Shown here piece after piece: positions 52,353-58,073 of a DNA stretch of 64,000 bases. Source of the stretch: Zobellia amurskyensis (lineage in GTDB: Bacteria; Bacteroidota; Bacteroidia; Flavobacteriales; Flavobacteriaceae); contig NZ_RCNR01000002.1 in the NCBI RefSeq assembly GCF_009725985.1, positions 62,001 through 126,000 on the forward strand. Direction: 5' to 3'. The position numbers and the translations under genes are program-made. Each line of letters starts with the position of its first letter. Position 1 is the first letter of the stretch. The notes under the pieces were generated by a model. It worked only from the letters and a program-made list of their open reading frames with translations, ran no database searches and was not told where the DNA came from.

Positions 52353-53015
52353 ATGACAAAAGCGGAAAAGGTTGATTTTACTATTAAAACCCTAAGGGAA
52401 ATTTATCCATCTATACCTGTACCCTTGGACCATAAAGATCCGTATACATTATTAATTGCCGTATTATTATCAGCACAAAGTACGGATGTTCGGGTAAATA
52501 AAATTACCCCGTTTTTATTTGAAAGAGCCGATAATCCTTATGATATGGTAAAACTATCAATAGATGAGATTCGGGAAATTATAAAACCGGTTGGACTTTC
52601 GCCAATGAAATCAAAAGGAATTCACGGACTTTCCAAAATGTTGATAGAAAAATATGATGGTGTGGTTCCTCAAGAAATAGAACTTTTAGAGGAATTTCCT
52701 GCTGTGGGCCATAAAACGGCCAGTGTTGTGGTTTCGCAAGCTTTTGGTATTCCTGCCTTTCCCGTAGATACCCATATTCATAGGTTAATGTACCGCTGGG
52801 GTTTTACTAACGGAAAAAATGTAGTGCAAACAGAAAAAGATGCTAAGCGCCTATTTCCAAAAGAAATTTGGAATGATCTACATCTTCAGATTATTTGGTA
52901 CGGCCGAGAATATTCACCTGCCAGAGGATGGAATTTAGATAATGATATCATAACCAAAACCATTGGCCGAAAAACAGTAATCGACAATTATTACAACGCA
53001 AAAAAGACCCGCTAA
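52353..53015 (+). CDS. nth: Endonuclease III homologue without an iron-sulfur cluster
   Basis: The 220-residue protein has the HhH-GPD fold: LLIAVLLSAQSTDVRVNKITPFLF, the hairpin LLEEFPAVGHKTASVVVSQAFG with the catalytic Lys (GHK), and VDTHIHRLMYRWG with the catalytic Asp. It should cut DNA at oxidised pyrimidines. The C-terminal region YGREYSPARGWNLDNDIITKTIGRKT takes the place of the [4Fe-4S] loop, but no Cys occurs in the entire protein, so the cluster is absent. The end overlaps the terminator of the convergent 47-codon gene. Confidence 0.9.
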   Translation: MTKAEKVDFTIKTLREIYPSIPVPLDHKDPYTLLIAVLLSAQSTDVRVNKITPFLFERADNPYDMVKLSIDEIREIIKPVGLSPMKSKGIHGLSKMLIEKYDGVVPQEIELLEEFPAVGHKTASVVVSQAFGIPAFPVDTHIHRLMYRWGFTNGKNVVQTEKDAKRLFPKEIWNDLHLQIIWYGREYSPARGWNLDNDIITKTIGRKTVIDNYYNAKKTR

Positions 53016-53030
53016 GTTAAATCGGGCCTT
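53004..53030 (-). terminator. Terminator of the first sigma/47-residue module, overlapping the nth stop
   Basis: On the minus strand the arms AAGGCCCG and CGGGTCTT pair (one G:U) with an 11-base loop and continue into TTTTTTGC. It lies six bases after the stop of the 47-codon gene and spans the stop codon of nth (53013-53015). Confidence 0.72.
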
Positions 53031-53036
53031 AATACT

Positions 53037-53180
53037 TTAGTTCAAGCTATTCTCAAATTGAAAATTCTTGTACTCAACAATGTGAAATTGCTTTGAAAAA
53101 CTAAGCAAAAAGTTGATAGTTTCTGTTGTTGCTTGTATAGCTGCACCTCTTTCAAGGTTCTCAGAGTAAATTTTTTCCAT
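53037..53180 (-). CDS. 47-residue conserved protein A, downstream of sigma factor A
   Basis: ATG 53178-53180 to TAA 53037-53039 reads 47 residues beginning MEKIYSENLERG, with FLLSFSK at 24-30 and ending QFENSLN. A paralogue of identical length is found at 54251-54394 next to sigma factor B: both share MxKIY at the start, FLLxxSK at 24-30, IxE at 34-36 and QFExxLN at 41-47 (18 of 47 identical by hand alignment). Such conservation of length and pattern supports real translation. It has no membrane segment and no Cys. It starts 71 bases after the sigma A stop, so it shares the sigma transcript. Function unknown; a regulator of the sigma factor is one guess. Confidence 0.7.
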   Translation of the reverse strand: MEKIYSENLERGAAIQATTETINFLLSFSKQFHIVEYKNFQFENSLN

Positions 53181-53251
53181 AATAGTTGTATAGTTATACA
53201 AAGGATAACGCAAGTAGAATGGAAATATTGTTATTAATTAATAGTGATCTA

Positions 53252-53833
53252 TTAATTCGTTAATACTATGTTATGTTTATCTATGATTTTTCTTAGGTTG
53301 ATCAAGGCGTAACGCATTCTACCTAAGGCTGTATTGATGCTTACTCCTGTGTTTTCAGAAATTTCCTTAAAGCTCATATCTTTATAGATACGCATTACCA
53401 AAACTTCTTTTTGATCGTCTGGCAATTCCTCGATCAGGTGCTTTAAATCTGATGTAATTTGATCTTTAATAATCTGCTTTTCAGCATTTAACTTGTCATC
53501 CCCTATTACAGAAAAGATATTAAAGTCATCACTACCTTCAAACATTGGCATTCTTTTGTTCTTTCTGAAGTGATCAATAATTAAATTGTGTGCTATACGC
53601 ATTACCCATGGTAAAAATTTACCTTCTTCACTATAAGAACCTCTTTTTAAAGTTTTAATCACTTTAATAAAAGTATCTTGAAAGATATCTTCAGTAACGT
53701 CTCTATCTAGAACCTTTGAGTAAATGAAACTAGAAATTCTTTGGTTGTGACGTTTGATTAAAACTTCAAGCGCTTTTTCATCTCCGCTGATATAATCTCT
53801 TACTAATACTGAATCTTCGATTTGTGAGCTCAT
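53252..53833 (-). CDS. ECF RNA polymerase sigma factor A (duplicated)
   Basis: The 193-residue protein has region 2 (HNQRISSFIYSKVLDRDVTEDIFQDTFIKVI), with GKFLPWVMRIAHNLIIDHFRK, and region 4 (LPDDQKEVLVMRIYKDMSFKEISENTGVSINTALGRMRYALINLRKII). It is a close paralogue of the gene at 54469-55050: same length, identical C-terminal 35 residues apart from a few changes, and about three quarters identical overall by eye. No FecR-type anti-sigma gene is adjacent. It may direct a stress regulon. Both copies keep the reading frame intact and the helix-turn-helix, so both are likely active. Confidence 0.92.
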   Translation of the reverse strand: MSSQIEDSVLVRDYISGDEKALEVLIKRHNQRISSFIYSKVLDRDVTEDIFQDTFIKVIKTLKRGSYSEEGKFLPWVMRIAHNLIIDHFRKNKRMPMFEGSDDFNIFSVIGDDKLNAEKQIIKDQITSDLKHLIEELPDDQKEVLVMRIYKDMSFKEISENTGVSINTALGRMRYALINLRKIIDKHNIVLTN

Positions 53834-54250
53834 GGTGTAGGGTTTTTAGTTTTTTTGGATTTGAGACTTTCTTTAGAAAGGCTGCCGTTATTTAGTTGCT
53901 TTTGAGTACTGTTATTATCCTTTGGTGGATGACCTTGTTGTTAATTATGATATAAAACTAGAGAATAGAGGCCTCTAGAAAAAAACATTGTTGTAAAACC
54001 GCCTTTTTTTGATGTGAAAACCTACTTTTCTATTTTTCTGCAAAATAAAATGCAATGAAGTGCGTTAACCACGGAAAATCAGCCTTCTGAAGAATGTCAT
54101 AGAAGTGCTATTTATATAAGGTTCTTTTTTACAAATAGGATATAACATATAGTGTGTACTATAAAGACAGTAATTAAACTTGGTTATTTCCTACAAAAAA
54201 GCCCCGATAATTCTCATTACCAGGGCTATATATATTTTAAAGAACTATTA
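53834..54250. other. 417-base gap between the two sigma modules
   Basis: It holds the promoter region and leader of sigma A and, near its right end, the terminator of module B (54200-54227). A palindrome AGAGGCCTCT is at 53966-53975. No open frame of support is seen. No clear TAnnTTTG box was found for sigma A. Confidence 0.5.
54200..54227 (-). terminator. Terminator of the second sigma/47-residue module, with a GNRA-type loop
   Basis: On the minus strand the arms AGCCCTGGTAAT and ATTATCGGGGCT pair over 12 positions (two G:U) around the tetraloop GAGA, followed by TTTTTTG. It lies 23 bases after the stop of the 47-codon gene B. Confidence 0.82.
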
Positions 54251-54394
54251 CTAGTTCAAATTCGATTCAAATTGTAGGCCATTAACTTCCGTTATCTCTA
54301 ACGCTTTGGAATAATCCAATAGAAACCTCACTGTTGAAGGTTTTGCTTTAGCCAATCTACATTTGTCCGATTCTGTAGCGTAAATTTTTCCCAT
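54251..54394 (-). CDS. 47-residue conserved protein B, downstream of sigma factor B
   Basis: ATG 54392-54394 to TAG 54251-54253 gives 47 residues that begin MGKIYATESDKC and end QFESNLN, with TVRFLLDYSKALEI in the centre. Its paralogue A has the same length and the same distance from its sigma gene (74 here, 71 there). One Cys at residue 12. No membrane helix. The FLLDYSK pattern recalls short flavobacterial proteins I have seen without a named function. It is the second gene of the sigma B transcript, ended by the hairpin at 54200-54227. Confidence 0.7.
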   Translation of the reverse strand: MGKIYATESDKCRLAKAKPSTVRFLLDYSKALEITEVNGLQFESNLN

Positions 54395-54468
54395 ATCTAT
54401 TTTAGTATTGTTTCCATATGATAACGCTACTAATATAGATATAATAAATAGACACGACCTACCGCTGA

Positions 54469-55050
54469 TTAATTCGTTAAAACAATATTATGCTGCTCTA
54501 TGATCTTTCTAAGGTTGATTAATGCATAACGCATTCTTCCCAAAGCGGTGTTTATACTTACTCCTGTATTTTCAGAAATTTCTTTGAAGCTCATATCCTT
54601 ATATATACGCATAATCAAAACCTCTCTTTGGTCCGCAGGCAATTCGGCAACAAGAACTTCCAGGTCACAATCTATCTGGTCTTTTATGAGTTGGCGCTCC
54701 GCATTAAGTTTATCATCACCGATCAATGAAAATATATCAAAACTATCCGCCCCTTCAAACATAGGCATACGACTACTTTTTCTAAAATGGTCAATAATTA
54801 GGTTGTGCGCAATACGCATTACCCAAGGCAAAAACTTTCCCTCTTCGTTATAAGCACCACGCCGTAATGTTTTAATTACCTTAATAAAGGTATCTTGAAA
54901 AATGTCTTCTGTAATATCTCGGTTATTTACTTTAGAATAAATAAAACTACTAAGCCGCTGGTTGTGCTTTGCAATTAATATTTCCAATGCCTTTTCATCA
55001 CCGGAAACGTAGTTCTTAATAAGAAGGGAATCTTCTGTCAATATATCCAT
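54469..55050 (-). CDS. ECF RNA polymerase sigma factor B (duplicated)
   Basis: The 193-residue protein is a near twin of sigma A at 53252-53833. Region 2 reads HNQRLSSFIYSKVNNRDITEDIFQDTFIKVI, and EEGKFLPWVMRIAHNLIIDHF is identical in both. Region 4 ends INLRKIIEQHNIVLTN. It lies just downstream of the divergent uvrA promoter region. A -7 box at 55170-55177 gives a long leader (about 120 bases). The N-terminal ten residues and region 2/3 linker (GADSFDIFSLIGDDKLNAERQ) are the main differences from copy A. Confidence 0.92.
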   Translation of the reverse strand: MDILTEDSLLIKNYVSGDEKALEILIAKHNQRLSSFIYSKVNNRDITEDIFQDTFIKVIKTLRRGAYNEEGKFLPWVMRIAHNLIIDHFRKSSRMPMFEGADSFDIFSLIGDDKLNAERQLIKDQIDCDLEVLVAELPADQREVLIMRIYKDMSFKEISENTGVSINTALGRMRYALINLRKIIEQHNIVLTN

Positions 55051-55177: not shown

Positions 55178-55270
55178 GATAAAATTAAATGACTTTAGAA
55201 AATTTCTAACGTCATGCACACATTTTTTAATGCTAACCATACAATTTTAGCTATTGAATTCTTCATATTG

Positions 55271-55278
55271 TATCTTTG
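55271..55278 (+). promoter_or_regulatory. Candidate -7 box (TATCTTTG) for uvrA
   Basis: TATCTTTG fits TAnnTTTG and is 17 bases before ATG 55296. A weak TTTA (55246-55249) lies 21 bases upstream. Confidence 0.5.
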
Positions 55279-55295
55279 CAGGCTTAGATAAAAAC

Positions 55296-58073
55296 ATGGT
55301 GGAAATAGCAGATGTAAATCCTAAACACAACATTATAATTAAAGGTGCAAAACTGCATAATTTAAAGAATATTGATGTTGTAATACCCCGAAACAAACTA
55401 GTGGTCATAACCGGTCTTTCAGGTTCAGGAAAGTCTAGTTTAGCTTTTGACACCTTGTATGCCGAAGGCCAAAGACGTTATGTTGAAAGTCTTTCCTCAT
55501 ACGCCAGACAGTTCCTTGGCAAACTGGATAAACCAAAGGTGGATTATATAAAAGGTATAGCCCCTGCCATTGCTATTGAACAAAAGGTGAATTCTACAAA
55601 CCCACGGTCTACCGTAGGTACCACTACCGAAATTTATGATTATCTAAAATTATTGTATGCTCGTATAGGGCGTACCATCTCCCCTATTTCTGGCCGTGAA
55701 GTAAAAAAAGATACGGTTACGGATGTGGTGGAACACGTAAAAAAATACGAAGAGGGAACAAAGCTACTATTATTGGCCCCTATTGTTATTGATGAAAAAA
55801 GAGAGACTTTAAAATCTCTTCAGTTACTTTCTAAACAAGGGTATGCCCGAATAAAGTATAATGGCGAAGTACTGCGTATAGATAATGTACCCGAAGATAT
55901 TGGAAGAAATTTTGATTTGGTCGTTGATAGGATTATAGTAAAAGACGATGAGGATTTTTATAATCGTTTGGCCAACGCTGTGGACACCGCTTTTTTTGAA
56001 GGGAAAGGAGAATGTGCCATTGAAGAGCTGTCCACAAAAGAGCAAACACCTTTTAGCAATAAGTTTGAACTAGACGGCGTCACTTTCTTAGAACCTAATG
56101 TACATTTATTCAGCTTTAACAATCCTTATGGGGCATGTCCAAAATGTGAAGGTTACGGAGATGTGATTGGTATAGATGAAGACCTGGTTATTCCAAATAC
56201 CGCTCTATCCGTATATGAGAATGCGGTTTTTCCATGGCGAGGAGAGAGTATGGGCTGGTACAGGGACCAACTTGTAAATTCGGCATATAAATTCGATTTT
56301 CCAATTCATAAACCATGGTTTGAGTTATCCGAGGAACAAAAGCAACTGGTCTGGCAAGGTAACGACCACTTTATTGGGTTGAACAAGTTTTTTGAGCAAT
56401 TAGAAGAAAAGAGCTATAAAATCCAGAACAGGGTCATGCTTTCCCGCTACAGGGGAAAAACCAGATGTAATGTTTGTCAAGGAAAGCGATTACGAAAAGA
56501 AACCGATTATATTAAAGTAGGAGGAAAAAACATTTCTGACCTAGTTGAATTACCTATTCGTAGATTGATTCCGTTTTTTGAGGAATTGGTTTTAGATGCA
56601 ACTGACGAAAAGATTGCTTCTCGGCTTTTAAAGGAAATTAGTGCCAGATTAGGTTTTCTCCATAAAGTTGGATTGAGTTACCTGACCATCAACAGAAAAT
56701 CTAATACGCTTTCTGGCGGTGAGAGTCAGCGTATCAATTTAGCCACTTCATTAGGCAGTAGCCTTGTGGGAAGTATGTATATTTTGGATGAACCCAGTAT
56801 AGGACTACATCCAAAAGACACAGAGAACTTGGTTGATGTTCTATTGTCCTTAAGGGACCTTGGTAACACCGTTATTGTTGTTGAACACGATGAAGACATC
56901 ATGAAAGCTGCAGATGTGGTTATAGATATTGGCCCCGAAGCTGGCACGCATGGTGGTGAAGTCGTTGCCTACGGAACACTGGATGAAGTTCTAAAATCCA
57001 CATCGTTGACGGCCAGTTACCTTAATGGCACAGAAGAAATAGCCGTTCCAAGCAAAAGAAGAACCTCTACCGATTATATTACAATAAAAGGGGCACGTGA
57101 AAATAATCTAAAGAATATAGATGTAACCTTTCCGCTTAATATGCTTACCGTTATTACGGGTGTTTCTGGTAGTGGTAAAAGTACTTTAGTCAAAAAACTC
57201 CTGTATCCTATTATTCTGAAAGAAGTAGGCGGATATGGAGAAAAGGCTGGTCAGTATACTAAAGTAGAGGGTAAGTACAAGACTATAAAACATGTTGAGT
57301 TTGTAGACCAGAATCCAATAGGCCGATCTTCACGCTCTAACCCTGTTACGTACATTAAGGCTTACGATGATATTAGAAACCTTTTCGCCTCCCAAAAACT
57401 AAGCAAAATAAGAGCTTATCAGGCCAAACATTTCTCCTTTAATGTAGATGGAGGCCGATGCGAAAAATGTAAGGGTGAAGGTGAGATTACCGTAGAAATG
57501 CAATTTATGGCAGATGTTCACTTAACGTGTGATACCTGTGGCGGAAAGCGTTTTAAAAAGGAAGTATTAGAAGTTAAATTTGAAGATGCCAGTATTGATG
57601 ACGTTTTAAATATGACTATTGACGACGCTATTGCATTCTTTGAAGAGCATAAGCAAACTAAGATTGTCAATAAATTGAAGCCTTTACAAGATGTAGGCTT
57701 AGGTTATGTAACCTTAGGTCAATCCTCTTCTACTCTGTCTGGTGGGGAAGCGCAGCGTATAAAACTGGCTTCTTTTTTGGTGAAGGGTACTACAAAAGAT
57801 AAAGCACTATTTATCTTTGATGAGCCTACTACCGGTTTGCACTTTCATGATATCAAAAAACTTTTAAAATCTTTTGATGCCTTAATTTCCAAAGGACATT
57901 CCGTTATTGTTATTGAGCACAATATTGAATTGATCAAGTGTGCGGATTATATTATTGACCTTGGTCCTGAAGGTGGTGAAGGAGGTGGACATCTTTTAGC
58001 AGAAGGTACACCAGAAGAAATTAGTAAGAGCAAAACTTCTTTTACGGCCAAATACTTAAAAGAAAAATTATAG
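55296..58073 (+). CDS. uvrA: Excinuclease ABC subunit UvrA
   Basis: From ATG 55296 the protein has 925 residues, typical of UvrA. Two ABC ATPase halves are visible: Walker [23 protein letters not shown] and [15 protein letters not shown]; signatures [18 protein letters not shown] and [14 protein letters not shown]; zinc modules CPKCEGYGD...CNVCQGKRL and CEKCKGEGE...CDTCGGKRF. It finds damaged DNA in nucleotide excision repair, together with UvrB and UvrC (not in the window). A TTG 14 codons upstream (55254) overlaps the promoter, so ATG 55296 is chosen. Confidence 0.97.

Follow-up and report, generated by a model that had tools for sequence, protein, structure and literature searches.

In a 64,000-nucleotide stretch of the Zobellia amurskyensis genome (contig NZ_RCNR01000002.1, positions 62,001 to 126,000; hereafter the window), two genes for extracytoplasmic function (ECF) sigma factors lie in tandem on the minus strand, each followed by an open reading frame (ORF) of only 47 codons. 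The upstream sigma factor gene, copy A, occupies positions 54469-55050 and is followed by microprotein gene A at 54251-54394, whereas copy B occupies 53252-53833 and is followed by microprotein gene B at 53037-53180. Both sigma factor genes, taken from the ORF list, encode 193 amino acids and are members of the ECF group of the sigma-70 family, with regions 2 and 4 recognized in each product by PF04542 (Sigma70_r2) and PF08281 (Sigma70_r4_2) above the Pfam cut-offs; the NCBIfam model TIGR02937 also scores above its cut-off. An earlier note, made from the sequence of the window alone, had described this arrangement as a duplicated functional unit, and its coordinates agree with ours, as do the distances it gave between the two sigma stops (1217 bases), between the two short-gene stops (1214 bases), and between each sigma factor gene and its short gene (74 bases for A, 71 for B). 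The note had judged the sigma factors to be about three quarters identical. Their identity is indeed high, but this figure is slightly low, as we measure 82% over 188 aligned residues. The positions that differ are scattered across both domains, and sigma A is 98% identical to a sigma factor of Zobellia russellii (locus L160). The two microproteins are 38% identical to each other. The ORF of microprotein B also contains upstream TTG starts, and its ATG start yields the 47-residue product.

Each unit carries its own terminator-like hairpin with a T-run 3′ of the microprotein gene, again as previously proposed. The hairpin of unit A (54200-54227, minus strand) folds with a z score of -3.85 and is equaled by none of 200 shuffled sequences. 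That of unit B (53004-53030, minus strand) has a z score of -1.91, is equaled by 8 of 200 shuffles, and is absent from the list produced by a general terminator scan. The spacers between sigma factor and microprotein genes differ between the copies. Spacer B contains an exact match to the promoter-like motif ACAATA-N15-CGTTAT (53205-53231, minus strand; contig coordinates 115205-115231). As read from the sequence, spacer A holds on the same strand an AGGTCG element (54455-54460) and a CGTTAT element (54421-54426) that lacks CAATA at the usual distance.

Two samples of related loci were assembled. The family sample is drawn from 149 Flavobacteriaceae genomes, from which 99 loci were fetched, one stray piece being set aside, and, together with the window, give 100 loci from 99 genomes with 117 sigma copies. 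The named-relative set holds 78 loci with 130 sigma copies; it comprises the best of 567 relatives and is thus biased toward near kin. The two sets overlap in some species. Homologs of the sigma factor are found in 144 of the 149 genomes at a threshold of 1e-35. A single-sequence search reports the microprotein in 134 of the 149 at E≤1, where weak matches by themselves are no evidence. A profile was trained on hits from the 117 copies and was applied afterwards to the named loci, to 20 additional genomes, and to other families. With this profile, a same-strand ORF of 45-51 codons that starts 44-154 bases past the sigma stop is found at E<1e-3 for 116 of the 117 copies, and the remaining copy (L057) scores 2.1e-3. 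The microprotein is likewise present behind the sigma factor in all 20 further genomes (19 at E<1e-3 and one at 3.7e-3), including four (G052, G089, G099, and G139) that give no hit in the single-sequence search. In total, it lies directly behind the sigma factor in 137 of 137 inspected copies (135 at E<1e-3), representing 119 of the 149 genomes. It also follows all 130 sigma copies of the named loci.

The 47-codon ORF is a real protein gene under selection. Across 44 close, overlapping pairs, the ratio of nonsynonymous to synonymous differences (pN/pS) is 0.13 for the microprotein and 0.03 for the sigma factor, and all 130 named microproteins have an ATG start and a terminal Asn. The module proposal would have failed if homologous short frames were missing behind orthologous sigma factor genes or if dN/dS were near 1; neither is the case, and the view that the small protein is kept with its sigma factor in a duplicated unit is borne out by these conservation data. 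A terminator-like hairpin is present 3′ of 116 of the 130 named microprotein genes and in none of the 130 named sigma-microprotein spacers, so that the two genes can share one transcript. The 47-residue products match no entry in Pfam or NCBIfam at E values up to 1. Judged by titles and the opening lines of abstracts, a literature search returned no paper describing this microprotein.

The genes surrounding the unit are also conserved. In the window, uvrA is the divergent neighbor (55254-58073, plus strand) and nth, encoding endonuclease III, is the convergent neighbor (52353-53015, plus strand), whose 3′ end at 53015 falls within the hairpin of unit B. In the family sample, uvrA is upstream of 114 of the 117 sigma copies and nth is downstream of 113; in loci of other families, the counts are 41 and 19 of 60, respectively. 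Because uvrA flanks the sigma factor gene in most loci, these loci are positional orthologs.

A single unit is the general state in Flavobacteriaceae: 83 of the 100 family loci carry the unduplicated unit and 17 carry a tandem pair. Tandem pairs occupy 52 of the 78 named loci, and one further genome (G106) has its two copies apart, each on a different contig. A tree built from 71 of the 117 sigma factors places all pairs within one clade, with a Shimodaira-Hasegawa-like approximate likelihood ratio (SH-aLRT) support of 98. The duplication is not a local event but is old and confined to this one clade, consisting of Zobellia and its relatives. Within the tree, which contains many weak forks, A and B copies cluster largely by type, though imperfectly: grouping the copies by three labels requires nine label changes versus 29.5 for shuffled labels, and three A copies stand among the B copies and one B copy among the A copies. 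The simplest reading is that one old duplication was followed by later loss or conversion.

The spacer between the sigma factor and microprotein genes typically contains ACAATA, 15 bases, and CGTTAT, and in most spacers CGTT lies 28-38 bases ahead of the microprotein start. At least five of the six letters of ACAATA occur 13-16 bases before CGTT in 93 of the 117 spacers of the family sample, versus 0.63 expected from shuffled sequences, and in none of the 117 matched stretches that follow the microprotein gene. This arrangement has the form of an ECF promoter, and we refer to it as promoter-like. The stricter pattern CAATA-N13-16-CGTT separates the two copies completely. It is present in all B copies (52/52 named and 17/17 in the family sample, or 69/69) and in most single copies (26/26 named and 63/83, or 89/109), and is present in no A copy (0/52 named and 0/17, or 0/69). 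Some of the named copies counted as single lie near contig ends, where a neighboring copy may be lost. Under the looser five-of-six rule, 11 of 52 named A copies and 3 of 17 in the family sample are recovered, but no named copy among them shows the distance of 15 bases. CGTT itself is retained in 51 of the 52 named A spacers. In turn, GGTCG is common in A spacers, being found in 39 of 52 named copies (1.14 expected from shuffling) and 13 of 17 in the family sample (0.4 expected), versus 2/52 and 1/17 for B copies and 5/26 and 3/83 for single copies. A few single copies hold both CAATA-CGTT and GGTCG. These distributions fit a complementary loss of control elements from the two spacers after duplication.

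Deeper in the class, the small protein changes in form. Using the profile at E<1e-3, the microprotein is recognized behind the sigma factor in 26 of 31 fetched loci from other families of the order and in 5 of 29 from other orders of the class. Genome tallies are 85 of 148 for the microprotein and 117 of 148 for the sigma factor at the order level, and 36 and 118 of 247 at the phylum level. At nine deeper loci, a longer ORF of 76-90 residues stands in the place of the microprotein, with lengths of 88 (L271 and L272), 90 (L290), 79 (L264), and 76-77 residues (L247, L261, L248, L252, and L265). The ORF start overlaps the end of the sigma factor gene in L264 and in the five loci of the shortest group. 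Three other loci (L257, L263, and L245) have the C-terminal motif, but a start that would give a long form is not clear in them. In 12 loci from families f18 and f19, the sigma factor is retained and the small protein is not recognized. At one locus of family f17 (L238), an ORF of 552 residues that by eye resembles a transposase occupies the position behind the sigma stop where the small protein is expected. Four relatives with small genomes (L388, L389, L391, and L392) encode a microprotein that stops shortly past its helix.

The microprotein is homologous to the C-terminal part of the 88-residue forms, and these in turn to the 76-79-residue forms. The 88-residue forms match the 76-79-residue forms by profile comparison (98.9% probability, E value of 1.9e-17, residues 1-73) and by BLASTP (33% identity over 76 residues, E value of 6e-12), and the microprotein aligns to residues 51-88, the last 38, of the 88-residue forms with 92.9% probability. 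The long forms share an N-terminal pattern, TFTPxDLxRYxYxE...ALxxDxxL, and later PSxxTIxxILxYS. We read the former as helices 1-3 and the latter as helix 4 of a class I anti-sigma factor, which the long form would thus represent, although helices 1-3 are present as a sequence pattern only. One 88-residue form also weakly matches the NCBIfam entry "putative anti-sigmaE protein" (E value of 0.026, residues 9-50). According to PMC7406223, class I anti-sigma factors place their helix 4 on sigma regions 2.1 and 2.2, the site that core polymerase binds. Like those proteins, which carry the ASDI domain, the small protein is encoded directly behind an ECF sigma factor gene, its long forms can be read as helices 1-3, a linker, and helix 4, and the helix kept in the microprotein would occupy the helix 4 site on sigma domain 2. 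In contrast to the class I proteins, the microprotein has 47 residues, lacks helices 1-3, and by inspection has neither a zinc motif nor any membrane or sensor part. Because it matches the last 38 residues of the 88-residue forms, the microprotein has the look of an anti-sigma-like factor of which the fourth helix and a hairpin are left.

Structure prediction for the microprotein yields a helix at residues 19-31 and strands at 32-37 and 40-45, with a mean predicted local distance difference test (pLDDT) score of 78.9 (91 for residues 21-30 and 89 for 31-40) and a predicted template modeling (pTM) score of 0.43. The three-helix bundle is absent, as the model contains one helix. Couplings within the microprotein (23-27, 31-45, 33-44, and 36-41) agree with the model, the two results resting on related alignments. 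A fold search with this model gives a best E value of 3.3, and comparison to solved structures gives no significant match (best E values of 0.3 for the microprotein and 0.49 for the nine long forms). Covariation between sigma factor and microprotein was evaluated with 253 distinct pairs of 263 assembled, with an effective number of 121. Seven sigma region 2.1 contact positions, chosen from a table in PMC7406223, receive 15 hits among the top 200 couplings versus 7.3 expected. This covariation with region 2.1 is modest and is suggestive only.

Given these findings, we propose that, in Flavobacteriales, an anti-sigma-like ancestor of 76-90 residues, encoded behind this conserved ECF sigma factor gene, shrank until its last helix (PxxETIxFLLxYSKAL) and a C-terminal hairpin ending in Asn were left. 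The kept helix would bind region 2.1/2.2 of its own sigma factor, as helix 4 of class I proteins does, and the directly upstream sigma factor is probably its cognate partner. The sigma factor would drive its own microprotein gene from the spacer motif, making each unit a small negative-feedback loop, with A and B representing two loops that have different switches. We give roughly even chances to the central prediction, that the microprotein is a feedback regulator derived from an anti-sigma-like protein and binds sigma domain 2. The full history is more tentative and, to our judgment, somewhat doubtful. In it, a whole anti-sigma factor would have been worn down until one sigma-binding helix and its hairpin tail were left, a product that would rank among the smallest proteins regulating a sigma factor. 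The unit would then have been duplicated and the ancestral elements split (CAATA-CGTT to B, AGGTCG to A), so that Zobellia, Maribacter, and their relatives have two feedback loops insulated from each other.

Several results weigh against the proposal of a sigma-binding feedback regulator. The microprotein is missing helices 1-3, which make up half of the known anti-sigma interface, and may therefore not inhibit. Residues 18-47 rank first of 164 windows for couplings to the sigma factor and hold 13 of the top 30, versus 6.3 ± 1.8 under a broad-cluster permutation (n = 10), but a tight-cluster permutation still places 11.3 ± 2.0 there (n = 10), and the window was picked after the coupling list had been viewed. 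Sigma2 taken as a whole shows no surplus among the top 50 couplings (26 versus 24.6), and folding sigma factor, spacer, and microprotein as one read-through chain gave no usable complex (pLDDT of 66.6, pTM of 0.35). Regarding the homology, a direct comparison of the microprotein with the 76-79-residue forms is weak (33% probability), the 90-residue form of L290 is not matched by the microprotein profile and is placed by alignment only, and neither microprotein nor long form has a significant match in Pfam, NCBIfam, or solved structures. As for the promoter-like motif, the rule satisfied by most spacers is met upstream of the sigma factor gene in just 4 of 117 stretches, and with at most one mismatch the motif has 49 matches in its own genome versus 43 for a reversed control. 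Because the motif shows no genome-wide excess and is rare upstream of the sigma factor gene, its dependence on the sigma factor is putative. Finally, B and single spacers fold slightly better than shuffled sequences (mean z of -1.14).

Helices 1-3, presumed to be the inhibitory part, have been lost, and the last helix is under purifying selection; one possibility is that the contact has been kept and its sense changed. The microprotein would then bind its sigma factor and help it, as a chaperone, a co-sigma factor, a stabilizer, or a proteolytic adaptor. The absence of hairpins from the spacers, which leaves both genes free to share a transcript, is compatible with such a role. However, small proteins encoded beside ECF sigma factors are mostly inhibitors, and we consider a helper unlikely. 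The conserved promoter-like motif that the microprotein gene has to itself, together with the lack of a wider excess of this motif, could instead place the microprotein among the outputs of the sigma factor, not among its regulators, as a sigma-induced small effector acting on another target and encoded next to the sigma factor because it is switched on by it. The homology of the microprotein to the long, anti-sigma-like proteins encoded at this locus, and its constant linkage to one sigma factor, point instead to the sigma factor as its partner, making this explanation distinctly unlikely.

It is also conceivable that the transcript acts as a regulatory RNA in which the ORF is incidental. A short transcript running from the spacer motif to the terminator is expected, and PMC9723704, on a flavobacterial transcriptome, lists a putative regulatory RNA, Rfp11, among its SM6 promoters. 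Rfp11 is placed there under a CGT-box (SM6) promoter and is reported to have a strong predicted structure and to be conserved in further species, and it might correspond to this gene. This possibility is very improbable in light of the low pN/pS, the invariant ATG and Asn ends, and the protein-like couplings within the microprotein. Moreover, the coding stretch barely surpasses shuffled sequences in folding (mean z of -0.56, n = 43), A spacers behave similarly (mean z of -0.42), and the best Rfam scores are 21.6 and 10.5 versus gathering thresholds of 56 and 47. Thus, there is neither a near-gathering Rfam match nor folding clearly better than that of shuffled sequences, as a structured RNA would be expected to provide.

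Throughout the class, the ECF sigma factor described here is conserved, often next to uvrA, yet the family libraries searched contain no entry for the small protein adjoining it. Should the microprotein be the regulator, it would show how small a part of an anti-sigma factor suffices and would provide a natural minimal peptide for dissecting sigma inhibition. The duplicated sigma loop would then be a clear example of divergence in which the two copies lost complementary control elements. Genes of this size, about 47 codons, are also easily overlooked or filed as regulatory RNAs even when they are conserved.

We also considered a wide regulon controlled by the spacer motif, and rejected it given the lack of excess over the reversed control and the presence of just two exact matches in the Z. 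amurskyensis genome, in spacer B and at C45:22114; a small regulon would be compatible with these counts. Exact matches occur in 113 of the 149 Flavobacteriaceae genomes and, among the matches listed, many are either the microprotein spacer or a recurring string that ends in GA(T/A)GAAGCGTTAT. This string, ACAATAC...GA(T/A)GAAGCGTTAT, recurs exactly across genomes (including G000:C45:22114-22140) and swells the motif counts. It looks like conserved coding sequence rather than a promoter.

Another 193-residue ECF sigma factor of Bacteroidetes is SigP, which acts in the PorXY pathway of type IX secretion in Porphyromonas gingivalis (PMC4800418 and PMC8265659). A SigP peptide deduced from two published primers has no clear alignment with the flavobacterial sigma family, and the primer pattern is found in 0 of 396 genomes in the order of G296, which seemingly is not that of Porphyromonas. 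In PMC6994654, the hypothetical gene PGN_0273, numbered next to sigP (PGN_0274/PG0162), is up 4.22-fold and sigP 2.75-fold in a mutant devoid of guanosine tetraphosphate (ppGpp). PGN_0273 could correspond to the small protein.

Control of type IX secretion through a motif at gldN is not supported by the present counts. Regions upstream of gldN were taken from 30 loci, gldN having been matched in 41 genomes. The motif is present there with at least four of six letters in 8 of 30 loci (3.15 expected), with at least five in 1 (0.53 expected), and with all six in 1 (0.04 expected). This enrichment over 30 loci is weak, being neither convincing nor zero, and the spacer motif has no clear enrichment upstream of gldN. 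SM6 promoters of Flavobacterium psychrophilum, according to PMC9723704, have a CGT box in the -10 region and are ascribed to ECF sigma factors. The spacer motif resembles them, by description only, in its CGT box at -10. Between gldM and gldN, five loci (L361, L366, L367, L384, and L386) carry a CGTT box together with a -35-like stretch rich in A and T. The occurrence of this box in some genera is in line with the SM6 promoter that PMC9723704 lists at gldN in F. psychrophilum.
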